Origin: Kineothrix sp. MB12-C1
GTDB lineage: Bacteria > Bacillota > Clostridia > Lachnospirales > Lachnospiraceae
DNA length: 64,000 nt
NCBI RefSeq assembly: GCF_030863805.1
Contig: NZ_CP132957.1
Location: 2,790,001 to 2,854,000, forward strand
Direction of reading: 5' to 3'
Shown here: positions 1,236-51,771 of the stretch, piece after piece
Layout: each line of letters begins with the position of its first letter
How positions within the stretch are numbered: position 1 is the stretch's first letter
The notes under the pieces: generated by a model
The model's database searches: none
The model's input: the letters and a program-made list of their open reading frames with translations, nothing else
Told to the model about the DNA's origin: nothing
Translations under genes and position numbers: made by a program

Positions 1236-2705
1236 ATGGAAGAAATAAAGAATACGATGGAGAGGAAGAGATGGGAGAAGACGGCGGAGGTTGTCTTTTA
1301 TATCCTCGTGTTTGCTGCAATCAGTTGTTTTGCCATGCTTCAGGTATATGGAGATCCTCCCGATGAAATTAACCGATTTAAGATAGTCAGTTACATCTGG
1401 AATTATGGATATTTGCCAAAAGGAGGAGATCCGGAGGTGATTCTGGCAGGATATGGCGCCTCTTATGCGTTTCAGCCGATCCTGACCTATATCATACAGG
1501 GATACTTGCTTCGTTTTCTCGGAATGTTTACGAAAGATGGATATGTGCTGCTTCTGGCCGCACGCATGGTGAATGTTTGCTTCGGTGTTCTTATGGCATA
1601 CTATGTACGGTGCATTGCAAAGGAAGCGTGGAAGAATCCCTATGTGCAATGGACATTTACGCTTTTGGTCGTATTCCTGCCTCAGAATATTTTCATTCAT
1701 TCTTATGTGAATACGGATTCTATGGCGATGCTCTCTGTGGCGATTATTTTCTATGTGCTGCTTCGGGCAATGAGAACCGGCTATAGCAGAAAAGATTGCG
1801 TTTTGCTTTCGATAGGAATCATATTGTGTGCGATGTCTTATTATAATGCTTATGGCATTATAGTGGCAGCAATTCTTGTATTTATTATGAACTTCGTACA
1901 TAGGCAGGAGGGGAAAACAAAGAAAGTAACGATAGAGTGGAGGGAAATGCTGAGAAAGGGCGGATTGATATCCGCAATTGTACTACTCGGCATCGGTTGG
2001 TGGTTTGTCCGCAATGCGGTGCTTTATGATGGTGATATCATAGCGATGAATGCCAGGCTGCAATGCGCCATAGAGACGGCTACACCGGACTATAATCCTT
2101 TGACGCGATTCACTTATCAGAAGGAAGGGATTCCTCTAAGGGAGATGTTATTTGATACGGGGTATGTGACCTTGCTTCGCGATAGCTTTATCGCAATGTT
2201 CGGACCGATGGCAATACCGACTCATGGGTTGATTTATATCTTTTATAAATACTTATGGATTATAACGTGTGCGGCGGCAGTTCTTCCGATGAAAACGTGG
2301 ATAGATAAAGGTTGCTCTCAGGAAGCCTCTCCGTGGAAGTCAGAGGATGTGGGCGATTGGAAGAAAAAGGCGGTATTTTATGGCGGCATGTTATTGTTTT
2401 GCTTCATAACCATTGGGCTTAGTATTTATTATTCCTATACATGGGAATTCCAGCCTCAGGGAAGGTATATTCTACCGGTACTCGTCCCCTTTATGTATTT
2501 GGTAACGTTAGGAATTCAGAAGCTTTGCATTTTGGCAGAACATTTTCGTATAACAAGAGCTGTTAAATGTGCCAGGTTGCTTTGTATCGGTATTATGTCT
2601 TATGTTATGCTGGCATTTGCCTATAGTTTATTCGATCGCTTTATTCCGTATTATTTACAAGGAGAAAACATGTTCTCTATGTACGGGAAGATATTTATAC
2701 CTTAG
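1236..2705 (+). CDS. Polytopic membrane protein, GT-C / DUF2142-like
   Basis: A 489-residue protein with about ten hydrophobic segments. After the first one (residues about 19-37) comes PPDE at 41-44, the place where GT-C lipid-sugar-dependent glycosyltransferases and the DUF2142 family carry their conserved acidic motif. By analogy it would transfer a sugar from a polyprenyl-phosphate donor on the outer membrane face; that is inferred. The start at 1236 is supported by AGAGG about 5 nt upstream. The stop codon TAG lies inside the first unit of a five-copy tandem repeat (2702-3088), so the last codons read into repeat-like sequence. Its neighbours are another membrane protein upstream and a radical SAM gene downstream, all in the plus direction. 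Confidence 0.65.
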   Translation: MEEIKNTMERKRWEKTAEVVFYILVFAAISCFAMLQVYGDPPDEINRFKIVSYIWNYGYLPKGGDPEVILAGYGASYAFQPILTYIIQGYLLRFLGMFTKDGYVLLLAARMVNVCFGVLMAYYVRCIAKEAWKNPYVQWTFTLLVVFLPQNIFIHSYVNTDSMAMLSVAIIFYVLLRAMRTGYSRKDCVLLSIGIILCAMSYYNAYGIIVAAILVFIMNFVHRQEGKTKKVTIEWREMLRKGGLISAIVLLGIGWWFVRNAVLYDGDIIAMNARLQCAIETATPDYNPLTRFTYQKEGIPLREMLFDTGYVTLLRDSFIAMFGPMAIPTHGLIYIFYKYLWIITCAAAVLPMKTWIDKGCSQEASPWKSEDVGDWKKKAVFYGGMLLFCFITIGLSIYYSYTWEFQPQGRYILPVLVPFMYLVTLGIQKLCILAEHFRITRAVKCARLLCIGIMSYVMLAFAYSLFDRFIPYYLQGENMFSMYGKIFIP

Positions 2706-3088
2706 CCGCAAGCGGCCACGGTATGTTTTTTTGCACACTCGCTTTGCTCGGCGCAGTATAATATTGTTAAATATTATACTTTAGCCGCAAGCGGCCGCGG
2801 TATGTTTTTGCACACTCGCTTTGCTCGGCGCAGTACAATATTGTTAAATATTATACTTTAGCCGCAAGCGGCCGCGGTATGTTTTTGCACACTCGCTTTG
2901 CTCGGCGCAGTACAATATTGTTAAATATTATACCTTAGCCGCAAGCGGCCACGGTATGTTTTTGCACACTCGCTTTGCTCGGCGCAGTATAATATTGTTA
3001 AATATTATACCTTAGCCGCAAGCGGCCACGGTATGTTTTTGCACACTCGCTTTGCTCGGCGCAGTATAATATTGTTTAAATATTATAC
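2702..3088. repeat. Tandem repeat, five units of 77-79 bp
   Basis: Units begin with TTAGCCGCAAGCGGCC at 2702, 2781, 2858, 2935 and 3012. The first is 79 bp and the others 77 bp. Each holds two hairpins: GCCGC-AA-GCGGC, and a 24-nt inverted repeat with arms GTATAATATT and AATATTATAC around GTTA. Copies 2 and 3 carry GTACAATATT, which breaks one pair. The array fills most of the 561-bp gap between 2705 and 3267; the rest (3089-3160) shows nothing recognisable. It is not CRISPR, because there are no variable spacers. Confidence 0.95.
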
Positions 3089-3160
3089 CTTGATGGCTTG
3101 TCTTGACCGTAGATGGAATAAAGTGGTATGATAAATAGCATTGCTTACAGAAGATATGGT

Positions 3161-3230
3161 GTAGTTATTCAGCAGGTCTGTGCACTAGCTGCGCTGACCG
3201 TAAGAATATGTGAAGGTGCTGAACAGTTAC
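3161..3230 (+). repeat. Short family A element copy
   Basis: Runs from GTAGTTATTCAGCAGG through the first hairpin to CTGAACAGTTAC and lacks the central AAAATCCCATCACC hairpin. The flanks GATATGGT and GATATAGG agree at 6 of 8 positions, consistent with a decayed 8-bp target duplication. Confidence 0.65.
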
Positions 3231-36042: not shown

Positions 36043-36069
36043 ATTTGCAAAAAGATAAGGGAGATGGAA

Positions 36070-37191
36070 ATGGCTACAAATTCTAAAAAAAGTGGAAGAA
36101 GCGAAGATACTAAGATGAATAGCAAAAGCAAGAAAATGTCGGCAAAAGAAAAAGAGAGGAGAAAAAGAAAAAAGATTGTTCTCTTTATTGTAGAAATTTT
36201 CATATTGCTCATTATGGTAGGTGTGTTGTACTTTGTTCTTAAAGGTGAAAAAGTAGGTAAAGTTGAGTTAAATGCAGATAAGCTCGTGATTAACGAAGAA
36301 GTAAAACAAAGAGAAGAGACAACGAATATGAAGGGCTATCGCAATATCGCTTTATTCGGTGTGGATTCCACTACAGGAGCTTTAACGAAGAACACACGAA
36401 GTGATACCATTATGATTGCTTCCATTAACTTGGACACAGGAAATTGTAAGCTCGTTTCCGTATATCGTGATACCTATTTGAATTTAAGTAATGATACTTA
36501 TAATAAGTGTAATTCTGCTTATGCCAAGGGCGGTCCGGAGATGGCGATTAACATGTTGAATATGAACATGGATATGAACATCACAGACTTTATCACCGTA
36601 GGATTCGCAGGACTTACAGATACGATCGATGCGCTTGGCGGTATTATGGTAGACGTGGATAGTGCGGAGATTCATCATTTGAATAGTTATCAGTTCACGA
36701 TGGCAGAGGATTTGAAGCGCCCTTATAAAGAAGTAACAGAAACAGGCTATCAGCTTTTGAGCGGTCTTCAGGCAACAGCATACTGCCGGATTCGTTACAC
36801 GGCAGGAGATGACTTTAAGCGTGCAGAACGTCAGAGAGAAGTGCTGATGGCAGTAGCGGATAAGGCGAAGACGGCATCCCCGGCCACTTTGAATCAGATT
36901 GCTAACGATGTATTCAGCGAGATTTATACATCTCTCGATTTGACAGAAATCCTTGAGCTGTTAGGTGGTATCAGCAAATATAATATCGTGGATCAGGCCG
37001 GATTCCCCTACGAGCAGTATAGAACGACAGGGACGATTGGCTCTAAGGGAAGCTGCGTTATTCCGGTTGATCTGAAAGAGAATGTGGAATGGCTCCATAA
37101 GTTCTTATTCGATGAAGAATACACCGTATCTTCGGATGTACAGTCATACAGCGATAAAATAAAGAGTGACACCGCTTCCTATATCAGATAA
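36070..37191 (+). CDS. LytR-CpsA-Psr (LCP) family glycan ligase
   Basis: 373 residues. A Lys-rich cytoplasmic head, one membrane helix (about 39-58), and an LCP domain (about 93-330) with NIALFGVDS, TRSDTIMI, VYRDTYL, YCRIRYTAGDDFKRAERQR. These Asp and Arg residues bind polyprenyl pyrophosphate. LCP proteins transfer finished glycans from the lipid carrier to peptidoglycan. The start at 36070 is preferred because AAGGGAG is 8 nt upstream; the ATG at 36064 is too near. The gene ends with a clear terminator. Confidence 0.95.
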   Translation: MATNSKKSGRSEDTKMNSKSKKMSAKEKERRKRKKIVLFIVEIFILLIMVGVLYFVLKGEKVGKVELNADKLVINEEVKQREETTNMKGYRNIALFGVDSTTGALTKNTRSDTIMIASINLDTGNCKLVSVYRDTYLNLSNDTYNKCNSAYAKGGPEMAINMLNMNMDMNITDFITVGFAGLTDTIDALGGIMVDVDSAEIHHLNSYQFTMAEDLKRPYKEVTETGYQLLSGLQATAYCRIRYTAGDDFKRAERQREVLMAVADKAKTASPATLNQIANDVFSEIYTSLDLTEILELLGGISKYNIVDQAGFPYEQYRTTGTIGSKGSCVIPVDLKENVEWLHKFLFDEEYTVSSDVQSYSDKIKSDTASYIR

Positions 37192-37228
37192 GAACATAAG
37201 AAGAGATTGATATAAATAAAGATAAAAT

Positions 37229-37253
37229 AAAAGGACCTTCCAAGGGTCCTTTT
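37229..37253 (+). terminator. Rho-independent terminator after the LCP gene
   Basis: AAAAGGACC, 7-nt loop, GGTCCTTTT, then ATTG. The T-run CTTTTATT is also the target site of the adjoining mobile element. Confidence 0.9.
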
Positions 37254-37256
37254 ATT

Positions 37257-37398
37257 GTAACAGTTCAGCTCTTAACGCCGCGAGGTGTTTTTTGTGAGCG
37301 AAGATCACAGAAAACCCGAGTTTGGCAAGCGCGAAATACTGCTATGCAGTATTTCTGTGCATAAATTGTTGCTAGGAAGCCGTAGGCTGAATAGTAAC
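37257..37398 (+). mobile_element. Family B element with exact 8-bp duplication
   Basis: 142 bp from GTAACAGTTCAGCTC to GGCTGAATAGTAAC, with an inner hairpin GAAATACTGC-TAT-GCAGTATTTC. CTTTTATT flanks it at 37249-37256 and 37399-37406. It has a long interior unlike family A. Confidence 0.85.
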
Positions 37399-37406
37399 CT
37401 TTTATT

Positions 37407-37539
37407 GTAACTATTCAGTAGGTCTGCGCATTTACTGCGCTGACCGTACGATAACGTTGAATAACAAGTAAAAATCCCATCACCGAAGGTGATTTGAAAT
37501 GGATTTTTGCTCGTAACTGTGAAGGTACTGAACAGTTAC
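37407..37539 (+). mobile_element. Family A IS66-type MITE sharing the same target duplication
   Basis: 133 bp from GTAACTATTCAGTAGG to CTGAACAGTTAC. CTTTTATT stands at 37399-37406 and again at 37540-37547, so three copies of the 8-bp target separate two elements in tandem. Confidence 0.92.
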
Positions 37540-37578
37540 CTTTTATTAAATAATGAGGGAAAGGGGCAGGATAAGTTG

Positions 37579-38532
37579 ATGAAGGAAATAGATGTGATTA
37601 TCCCTGTATATAAACCGGACAAGGCTTTTTTGATGTTAATAGACAGCTTGCAGAATCAGACAGTTTCCATAGGGAAGATTATTATTATCAATACGGAGCA
37701 GAAATATTTCGACCGCCTGGTATATGGGACTCCATTTTTTGAGAAGAACAAGAATGTAGTTATTACCCATATTGGGAAGAAGGAGTTCAATCATGGCGCA
37801 TCCAGAAACCTGGGGGTGAGTAAGTCGCAGGCTCCTATTTTCGTTATGATGACACAGGATGCACTTCCGGGAGATGAGCATCTAATTGAGAATCTGGTGC
37901 GGCCGCTGGGGAAAGAGGAGGCCGCCGTCTCCTATGCAAGGCAGCTTCCGGCAGATGATTGTAATGAAATGGAACGATTTATGCGGGCCTTCAACTATCC
38001 TGCGAAAAGTGTGGAAAAGTCAGCGCGGGATATACAGCGGCTGGGGATAAAAACTTATTTCTGTTCCAATGTGTGTGCGGCATATAAACGAGAGGTATTC
38101 GATGCCCTCGGAGGTTTTGTGAAATGTACAATTTTCAATGAGGATATGATCTATGCGGCGGGAGCGATAAAGGCAGGATATCTGATTGCTTATGCGGCAG
38201 ATGCTAAAGTGATTCATTCTCACAACTATACTTGCAGGCAGCAGTTTCATCGTAACTTTGACTTGGGGGTATCTCAGGCGGATCATCCTGAGATTTTTGA
38301 GGGGGTTCCTTCGGAGAAGGAGGGTATCGCTCTTTTGAAAAGTTTGACAAGGCATTTGTGGAAGAATAGAAAGAGAGGAAAGATTCCGGTATTTTATATA
38401 AATAGTGCTTTCCGCTACGCGGGATTTTTACTCGGAAAGAAGTATAAGAGGCTACCTATGGCTCTCGTTATGAAATGTACATCGAATAAGGACTATTGGG
38501 GACAGATACGAAGAATAAAGGTAACTATCTGA
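37579..38532 (+). CDS. GT2 family glycosyltransferase, RfbF/rhamnosyltransferase-like
   Basis: 317 residues from the ATG at 37579 (AGGA 8 nt upstream); the frame continues up to 37507 only through the mobile element. IDVIIPVYKPDKAF begins the GT-A fold; FNHGASRNLG and MTQDALPGDE give the donor and metal-binding region; FNEDMIYAAGAIKAGY follows. It is close to dTDP-rhamnose transferases. Its last codons (GTA ACT ATC TGA) are the left end of a family A element, so the original C-terminus has been cut off and replaced by three element-encoded residues. The protein length is still normal for the family. Confidence 0.9.
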   Translation: MKEIDVIIPVYKPDKAFLMLIDSLQNQTVSIGKIIIINTEQKYFDRLVYGTPFFEKNKNVVITHIGKKEFNHGASRNLGVSKSQAPIFVMMTQDALPGDEHLIENLVRPLGKEEAAVSYARQLPADDCNEMERFMRAFNYPAKSVEKSARDIQRLGIKTYFCSNVCAAYKREVFDALGGFVKCTIFNEDMIYAAGAIKAGYLIAYAADAKVIHSHNYTCRQQFHRNFDLGVSQADHPEIFEGVPSEKEGIALLKSLTRHLWKNRKRGKIPVFYINSAFRYAGFLLGKKYKRLPMALVMKCTSNKDYWGQIRRIKVTI

Positions 38533-38649
38533 TAGGTCGGCGCATTTACTGCGCTGACCGTACGATAACGTTGAATAACAAGTAAAAATCCCATCACCGA
38601 AGGTGATTTTAAATGGATTTTTGCAACTGTGAGGGTACTGAACAGTTGC
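38521..38649 (+). mobile_element. Family A MITE inserted in the 3' end of a glycosyltransferase gene
   Basis: 129 bp from GTAACTATCTGATAGG to CTGAACAGTTGC. Exact duplication GAATAAAG at 38513-38520 and 38650-38657. The TGA at 38530-38532 ends the upstream gene. Confidence 0.92.
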
Positions 38650-38657
38650 GAATAAAG

Positions 38658-38721
38658 GTAACTATCTGATAGGTCGGCGCATTTGCGGCGCCAACCGTAA
38701 AAACACGTGGAAAACAGTTAA
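38658..38721 (+). repeat. Second, shorter family A copy in tandem
   Basis: GTAACTATCTGATAGG with a first hairpin GGCGCATTTGCGGCGCC, then a jump to AAACAGTTAAC. It starts right after the right duplication of the preceding copy and shares its unusual ATCTGATAGG left end, so it probably arose by duplication of the same insertion. Confidence 0.75.
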
Positions 38722-38809
38722 CAAAAAACGCATATTTTTATCACAAAAAGAACACAATTCCTCGATATACTGATAGCAAATATAAGGAAAGGAAGAATGA
38801 GTGCGAACC

Positions 38810-49903: not shown

Positions 49904-50610
49904 TTTTGTGTACCTCCCAGAAAATCGACTCCCGCATTAGACTGTATATATTCTTCGGTTGTGCCGAAAAACACCTGTTCATTTTTCAAGTGTAAGATAT
50001 TCCCGGCGTATTTAACGGCGCTGTGAATGTCATGAGATACCATAATGATGGTTATTCCGAGTTCTTCATTTATTTTTGCAATAAGGGTGTATAGCTCCTG
50101 TGTCACAATGGGGTCGAGCCCCGACACAGGCTCATCCAGAAGAAGAATCTTTTGTGTAGCGCAGAGCGCTCTGGCCAGAAGAGTCCGCTGCTGTTGGCCG
50201 CCGGATAGCTCCCGGTAGCATTTATTACGTAAGTTCTGTATACCGAGCCGGTTTAAATTTTCTTCGGCAGCCTCTTTATCCTTCTTTGTATAGAAGGGAA
50301 GAATACCACGCATACTGAGGCGGCCGGATAAAACCACTTCATATACACTGGCAGGAAAATCCTTCTGGGCAGCGGTCTGTTGGGGTAAATAGCCGATTTC
50401 GTTTGCCTTTAATTCCTCGTTCAAAGATAATTCTCCTTTGTAGGGCTGCTTTAATTGCAGCAGCCCCTTAATCAACGTACTTTTGCCGGAACCGTTCTCT
50501 CCGACAATACACAAATAATCTCCGCTATTCACCGTGAAATTCAATCCTTCAACGACGATATTGCCATCGTAGGCGAATGCAGCGTTTTGACATGTAATTA
50601 GTGCCATCAT
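49900..50610 (-). CDS. znuC: Zinc ABC transporter ATPase (ZnuC type)
   Basis: 236 residues from the ATG at 50610 (AAGGAGG upstream). Walker A GENGSGKST, signature LSGGQQQRTLLARAL, Walker B ILLLDEPVSGLD, switch His in VSHD. It powers the ZnuB permease from the cytoplasm. Both ends overlap the neighbouring genes by ATGA. The longer frame to 50643 lies inside znuA and is not needed. Confidence 0.94.
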   Translation of the reverse strand: MMALITCQNAAFAYDGNIVVEGLNFTVNSGDYLCIVGENGSGKSTLIKGLLQLKQPYKGELSLNEELKANEIGYLPQQTAAQKDFPASVYEVVLSGRLSMRGILPFYTKKDKEAAEENLNRLGIQNLRNKCYRELSGGQQQRTLLARALCATQKILLLDEPVSGLDPIVTQELYTLIAKINEELGITIIMVSHDIHSAVKYAGNILHLKNEQVFFGTTEEYIQSNAGVDFLGGTQK

Positions 50611-51671
50611 TGTAATGCCTCCTTCAAAGTATCCACATTGCATGTCATTAATTCCAGATAAGTAATGCCGTTTTCAAAGTCATCCTTTGTAATGTTATGG
50701 CAGGAATGTAAGAGAAGTTTTTCTGCGCCTGTGGCTTCAGAAATGGTGTTGGCCATTTTCTCATTGGAAAACTCAATATGAAATACAGCAGGGATATTTT
50801 CCTCCTTTACTTTGTCGATAAGGAAGGCAACCGTAGAAGCGCTTGCTTCGGTTTCTGTAGAACAACCGGGAAAAGCCGCAAAATAATCAAGGCCATACGC
50901 ATCTGCGAAGTAACGGAATGGGAAACGATCGCCAAATACAAGAGTTTTTCGACTGCCTGCCGACACTGCTTCCTTGAATGTATTATCCAGATTTTCCAGC
51001 TCTTCAAGATAAGAAGCAGTGTTTTGCTCATATATAGAAGCATTTGCAGGATCCAGTACACAGAGCATATCGGATAAAGACTGTACGATTATCATTGCAT
51101 TTCGAGGGGAAGTCCAGACGTGTTCGTCATATTCAACTTCGTGCTCGCTATCGTCATGCCCACTGTCGTCGTGCTGTTCAGCGGCTTCTTCATGTTCGCC
51201 GTCATCATCATGTTCATGGTCATCGCCATCGCTGTGCTCGCTGTCATCATCATGTTCATGACCATGTTCATCCTCCATGCCTTCGACGATTTCCTCTTCG
51301 ACGATATCGACAAGATTCATGAGAGATACAATTTCCATATTACTTGTATCCATGGAGCTTAAAATATCGTCGATCCAGGAATCAGATTCACCGCCTACGT
51401 AAATGAACATATCACTGTTCTGTATTCTGATGATGTCCTGGGGTGTGGGGTCAAAGGAATGGCTTTCGGCGCCGGGAGGCAGGAGCATGGATAATTCTAC
51501 GTTGTCCCCTGCGATCTGCCTGATAAAATCATATTGCGGGAAAATAGTGGCAACAACACTAATTTTTTTACTCTCATTTTCACTGATAGTGGCTGTATTG
51601 CGGCCGGAACAAGCGGTGAAAAACATTGCTGCCGCCGTAAGGATTGAAATAATTGTTAAAATGCGCTTCAT
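50607..51671 (-). CDS. znuA: Zinc-binding lipoprotein (ZnuA/AdcA type) with His/Asp-rich loop
   Basis: 354 residues from the ATG at 51671 (GGAGG 8 nt upstream). Lipobox FFTAC at about 18-22. The cluster-A1 metal fold starts VVATIFPQYDF. A loop at about 140-188 is almost all His, Asp and Glu, followed by EHVWTSPRN, where the His is a metal ligand. His-rich loops mark zinc rather than manganese binders. It collects zinc outside the membrane for ZnuBC. Confidence 0.94.
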   Translation of the reverse strand: MKRILTIISILTAAAMFFTACSGRNTATISENESKKISVVATIFPQYDFIRQIAGDNVELSMLLPPGAESHSFDPTPQDIIRIQNSDMFIYVGGESDSWIDDILSSMDTSNMEIVSLMNLVDIVEEEIVEGMEDEHGHEHDDDSEHSDGDDHEHDDDGEHEEAAEQHDDSGHDDSEHEVEYDEHVWTSPRNAMIIVQSLSDMLCVLDPANASIYEQNTASYLEELENLDNTFKEAVSAGSRKTLVFGDRFPFRYFADAYGLDYFAAFPGCSTETEASASTVAFLIDKVKEENIPAVFHIEFSNEKMANTISEATGAEKLLLHSCHNITKDDFENGITYLELMTCNVDTLKEALQ

Positions 51672-51771
51672 GATATGAACCTCCATATATTCTTAAATTT
51701 GCACACAAAAAGAAAGGCAATAGCATATGCCGCAAAAATAGATCAAAAATGGACATAGTTATCCCTTTGCT

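Follow-up and report, generated by a model that had tools for sequence, protein, structure and literature searches.

Two miniature elements of different families share one 8-bp target behind an LCP gene in Kineothrix sp. MB12-C1

In the window analyzed here, a 64,000-nucleotide stretch of the Kineothrix sp. MB12-C1 chromosome (NZ_CP132957.1, positions 2,790,001 to 2,854,000), two complete MITE-type elements of different families lie in tandem behind a gene of the LytR-CpsA-Psr (LCP) family and are bounded by three copies of the same 8-bp word, CTTTTATT. This double insertion into one 8-bp target in a member of the Lachnospiraceae is real and not a chance match of words. The arrangement probably arose by two successive insertions into a single A/T-rich target, a coincidence that needs no homing.

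The LCP gene (36064-37191, plus strand; ORF with PF03816, E=4e-34) is followed by an intrinsic terminator at 37226-37256 on the same strand (hairpin of -15.9 kcal/mol, z -4.46). As the sequence-only reading had proposed, the first copy of CTTTTATT lies in this terminator (37249-37256), where it is made up of the 3' arm of the hairpin plus the T-run; this is the ancestral position, the one at which congeners carry a single copy. It is followed on the plus strand by the 142-bp family B element (37257-37398), a second copy common to both elements (37399-37406), the 133-bp family A element (37407-37539) and the third copy (37540-37547), ahead of a glycosyltransferase family 2 gene (37579-38532, plus strand; ORF with PF00535, E=1e-12). 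The claim that one target sequence flanks two different elements three times was thereby borne out. Both elements were delimited by their ends and duplications, B running from GTAACAGTTCAG to CTGAATAGTAAC and A from GTAACTATTCAG to CTGAACAGTTAC. Apart from these ends the two families have no recognizable sequence in common, and the best relatives of each, up to 96% identical, sit elsewhere in the genome, which indicates that A and B arrived separately.

A comparison with one genome per species placed the LCP terminator, free of any element, at the corresponding position in 14 congeners. Exact CTTTTATT ends the terminator, once, in six of these 14 (G003, G005, G006, G007, G009 and G010), the run is one T longer in G001 and G002, and the remaining congeners differ in the run; no match at the LCP terminator locus was obtained in G014. 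Because the 14 congeners have the terminator without an element, both insertions are specific to the lineage of strain MB12-C1.

The two elements belong to an abundant superfamily whose hallmarks are imperfect 12-bp inverted ends, GTAAC[T/A][A/G]TTCAG, and 8-bp target duplications. The chromosome is complete (3.94 Mb), and the analysis covered about a third of it, some 1.36 Mb, in the form of stretches and loci. A scan of this DNA for 12-bp ends 24 to 320 bp apart, flanked by an 8-bp duplication with at most one mismatch, gave 68 matches, or 66 elements once two composites were removed, and none in the reversed sequence. In the 1.26 Mb whose choice did not depend on elements, made up of the window and stretches at even spacing, there were 41 elements, equivalent to about 130 (128) with intact duplications in the whole genome. 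The end motifs themselves numbered 751 against 269 in the control, an excess that suggests up to about 240 genomic copies when decayed ones are included. Element sizes cluster at 131-133, 140-143, 148 and 154-158 bp, and also at 26-33 bp. A and B are MITEs in structure because neither contains a gene, ORFs of 80 codons or more being absent from both; moreover, the duplication is of fixed length across the 66 elements, copies are dispersed and relatives have the empty site.

By exact word, family A was also found in Coprococcus comes, Blautia parvula, Mediterraneibacter agrestimuris and several further Lachnospiraceae. Among species of the genus, the source species and congener G008 have it in abundance, with at least 41 matches on the contigs of the latter (loci L231-L250); in other congeners, most of which had no matches or few, it is rare or undetected. 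Judged from these counts, the contrast would reflect sporadic bursts of amplification. A plasmid search with A and B returned no match and an Rfam search returned nothing, while a phage search returned five records of faecal phages, all unannotated, in each of which A or B was matched but not both.

Free-standing 27-bp units, GTAACTGTGAAGGTACTGAACAGTTAC, representing the right end of family A, were also observed with 8-bp duplications. The 8-mers flanking these solo copies agree with at most two mismatches in 26 of 64 cases, whereas a shifted control gave 2 of 64; examples in G000 are those at 418108, 1016722, 1056002, 1065729, 1325180, 1707371, 3106548, 3242221 and 3310981. At the last of these, between apparent apt and relA genes, congeners lack both the 27-bp unit and the second copy of the target. 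The unit could be either a minimal mobile form or what is left of a full element that collapsed in place between its GTAACT repeats. A possible hybrid junction, GTAACTAT..., was seen in 4 of 26 of the 27-bp units and in none of 33 full elements.

The 66 sites carry 65 different duplications, which rules out a strictly sequence-specific target. What the targets share is a weak, symmetrical preference for A/T-rich DNA, with an A preceding the 8 bp and a first half of the form R-A-W-W. Under a matrix trained on 114 sites, tandem sites left out, the window target falls in the 96th percentile of non-coding positions and the other targets have their median in the 94th. On cross-validation the preference concentrates insertions 4.6- to 5.0-fold (about 4.8). 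For 450 kb of non-coding DNA, ORFs of 100 codons or more being taken as an approximation of the coding part, the model predicts per genome 0.17 exact double hits at 128 copies, 0.61 at 240 and 1.3 at 350, values that inherit the extrapolation of copy number from roughly one third of the chromosome. One exact double hit is thus unremarkable and does not require a special mechanism: since high copy number and a weak A/T-rich preference together predict 0.2 to 1.3 such events, no homing need be assumed.

In the reading that we prefer, a first MITE-like element would have inserted into CTTTTATT behind the LCP gene, duplicating the 8 bp, and a second, at a different time, would have inserted into one or other of these copies and duplicated it in turn, leaving three. 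The ends and duplications point to a transposase that makes staggered cuts of 8 bp; both the type of transposase and the succession of insertions are what we infer rather than observe. The sequence-only reading had offered this as one of two routes, and the completeness of both elements, the identity of the three 8-mers and the element-free congeners speak in its favor.

Chance alone may not account for everything, as the ends of neighboring elements cluster at 3-12 bp and the strict spacers at 6-11 bp. We regard it as a less likely alternative that new insertions are drawn to the side of a resident end, by the transposase or by the shape of the DNA there, and so yield shared or overlapping duplications. 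Gaps of 3-12 bp between a right and a left end numbered 14 against one in the reversed-sequence control (14 against 8 at 13-60 bp), and pairs of unrelated elements depart from exact sharing by 0, +1, +3, -1 and -5 bp. A strict pattern, with spacers of 0-30 bp allowed, found nine junctions in seven of 397 genomes of the family, all nine with spacers of 6-11 bp and none in the control; a second congener has gaps of 6 and 7. In Blautia parvula (L172), two non-identical A-type elements lie between AAAATACA, AAATACA and AAAATACA, which are near-identical copies of a target. However, at least four of the 14 close gaps belong to local copies with shared private mutations, several of the nine strict junctions involve partial copies or self-tandems, the matrix gives tandem targets no higher scores than the rest, and chance alone expects about one to several near-exact pairs per genome. 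A modest preference for sites next to an end is possible. The stronger claim, that the superfamily transposase prefers the few base pairs beside resident ends, often re-using the duplicated target, and so produces shared-duplication tandems across the Lachnospiraceae, is in our estimate rather doubtful. P elements of Drosophila also make 8-bp duplications, and their second insertions occur at or beside an existing element; they are eukaryotic and unrelated, so that the parallel is one of analogy only.

It is improbable that the pair was built by recombination or slippage, whether a target and its element were duplicated in tandem or, as the sequence-only reading had also suggested, units were exchanged at shared ends. 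Such processes do appear to operate elsewhere in the superfamily. Element-target-element tandems whose second units share the private mutations of the first occur at window position 38513 and at 2677001, 3100799, 3676384 and 1528007. The window example (38513-38724, plus strand) consists of GAATAAAG, a family A element (38521-38649), GAATAAAG again and a partial A copy (38658 to about 38724) that has private variants in common with its neighbor. The element beginning at 38521, at the 3' end of the glycosyltransferase gene, now contains the stop codon of that gene. Another genus of the family has a 2.5-copy, 140-bp family A array (L187, 1446-1800) with the target ATCTTTTT between units. To judge from the shared variants, these tandems and the array suggest that one insertion was followed by slippage or by unequal exchange. 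At the LCP locus, by contrast, B and A are unrelated internally, so neither copied the other; their common ends of about 12 bp offer little for ordinary ectopic exchange; and the CTTTTATT duplication was found at no other sampled copy, A elements included, the rest having their own 8-bp duplications of differing sequence. An exchange of units is therefore not needed to account for the pair. The open-access literature that we searched contained nothing direct on shared-duplication tandems in bacteria.

Homing of the elements to intrinsic terminators, suggested by the T-run in the window target itself, is very improbable: the diversity of the duplications shows targets scattered genome-wide, and terminators are not enriched among them. 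A strict predictor that misses many terminators placed one no more than 15 bp away from 3 of 66 targets, compared with 2.5-2.8% of non-coding positions drawn at random, and a T-rich run behind a folded 32-mer was found at 9 of 65 targets against 11% (Mann-Whitney p=0.6), both comparisons being relative. As a general rule, site-specific targeting of terminators is refuted by these two counts, as far as the limited sensitivity of such predictions allows.

No transposase of the superfamily was found, and scans of the sampled DNA for long elements with superfamily ends and duplications gave no convincing parent. IS66 (PF03050) and ISL3 (PF01610) are absent from the source genome, and an IS256-type candidate (PF00872) was rejected, its single gene copy not being flanked by superfamily ends. 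The IS66 family, a possible parent, resembles the superfamily in its GTAA ends, a weak likeness of four bases in common, and its copies in relatives have perfect 8-bp duplications. Beyond GTAA the ends diverge, those of IS66 in relatives reading GTAAGCGTCAAATA (two copies gave both ends).

Other bacterial MITEs offer a closer structural comparison. QMITE1 and QMITE2 of Coxiella are short, gene-less and intergenic, with terminal inverted repeats, direct repeats of 7-9 bp, strong hairpins and many size variants (PMC10969869). They differ in ends and sequence from the elements described here, which form several modular families with one 12-bp end motif in a Lachnospiraceae host. The small BOX, RUP and SPRITE elements of pneumococci are bunched in intergenic DNA and inserted in or beside one another (PMC3049150, PMC10969869), whereas here two families share one exact 8-bp duplication.

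Two further repeat features were observed in the window. At 2651-3112 a 77-bp unit (CCGCAAGCGGCC..., ...AATATTGTTAAATATT) occurs five times in tandem; this array has a membrane-protein gene on one side and, at 3161-3230, a short element of family A on the other. The repeats of low complexity at 51157-51258 are due to the long His/Asp/Glu-rich loop of a lipoprotein encoded at 50607-51686 on the minus strand, by eye of the zinc-binding ZnuA/adhesin type.

The analysis documents an abundant superfamily of Lachnospiraceae MITEs with 8-bp duplications, of which we found no description in the open-access literature searched. It also offers a worked example of a conspicuous shared duplication that copy number plus a weak target preference can account for. 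Targeting next to resident ends, if confirmed, would give new insight into target choice by a bacterial transposase.
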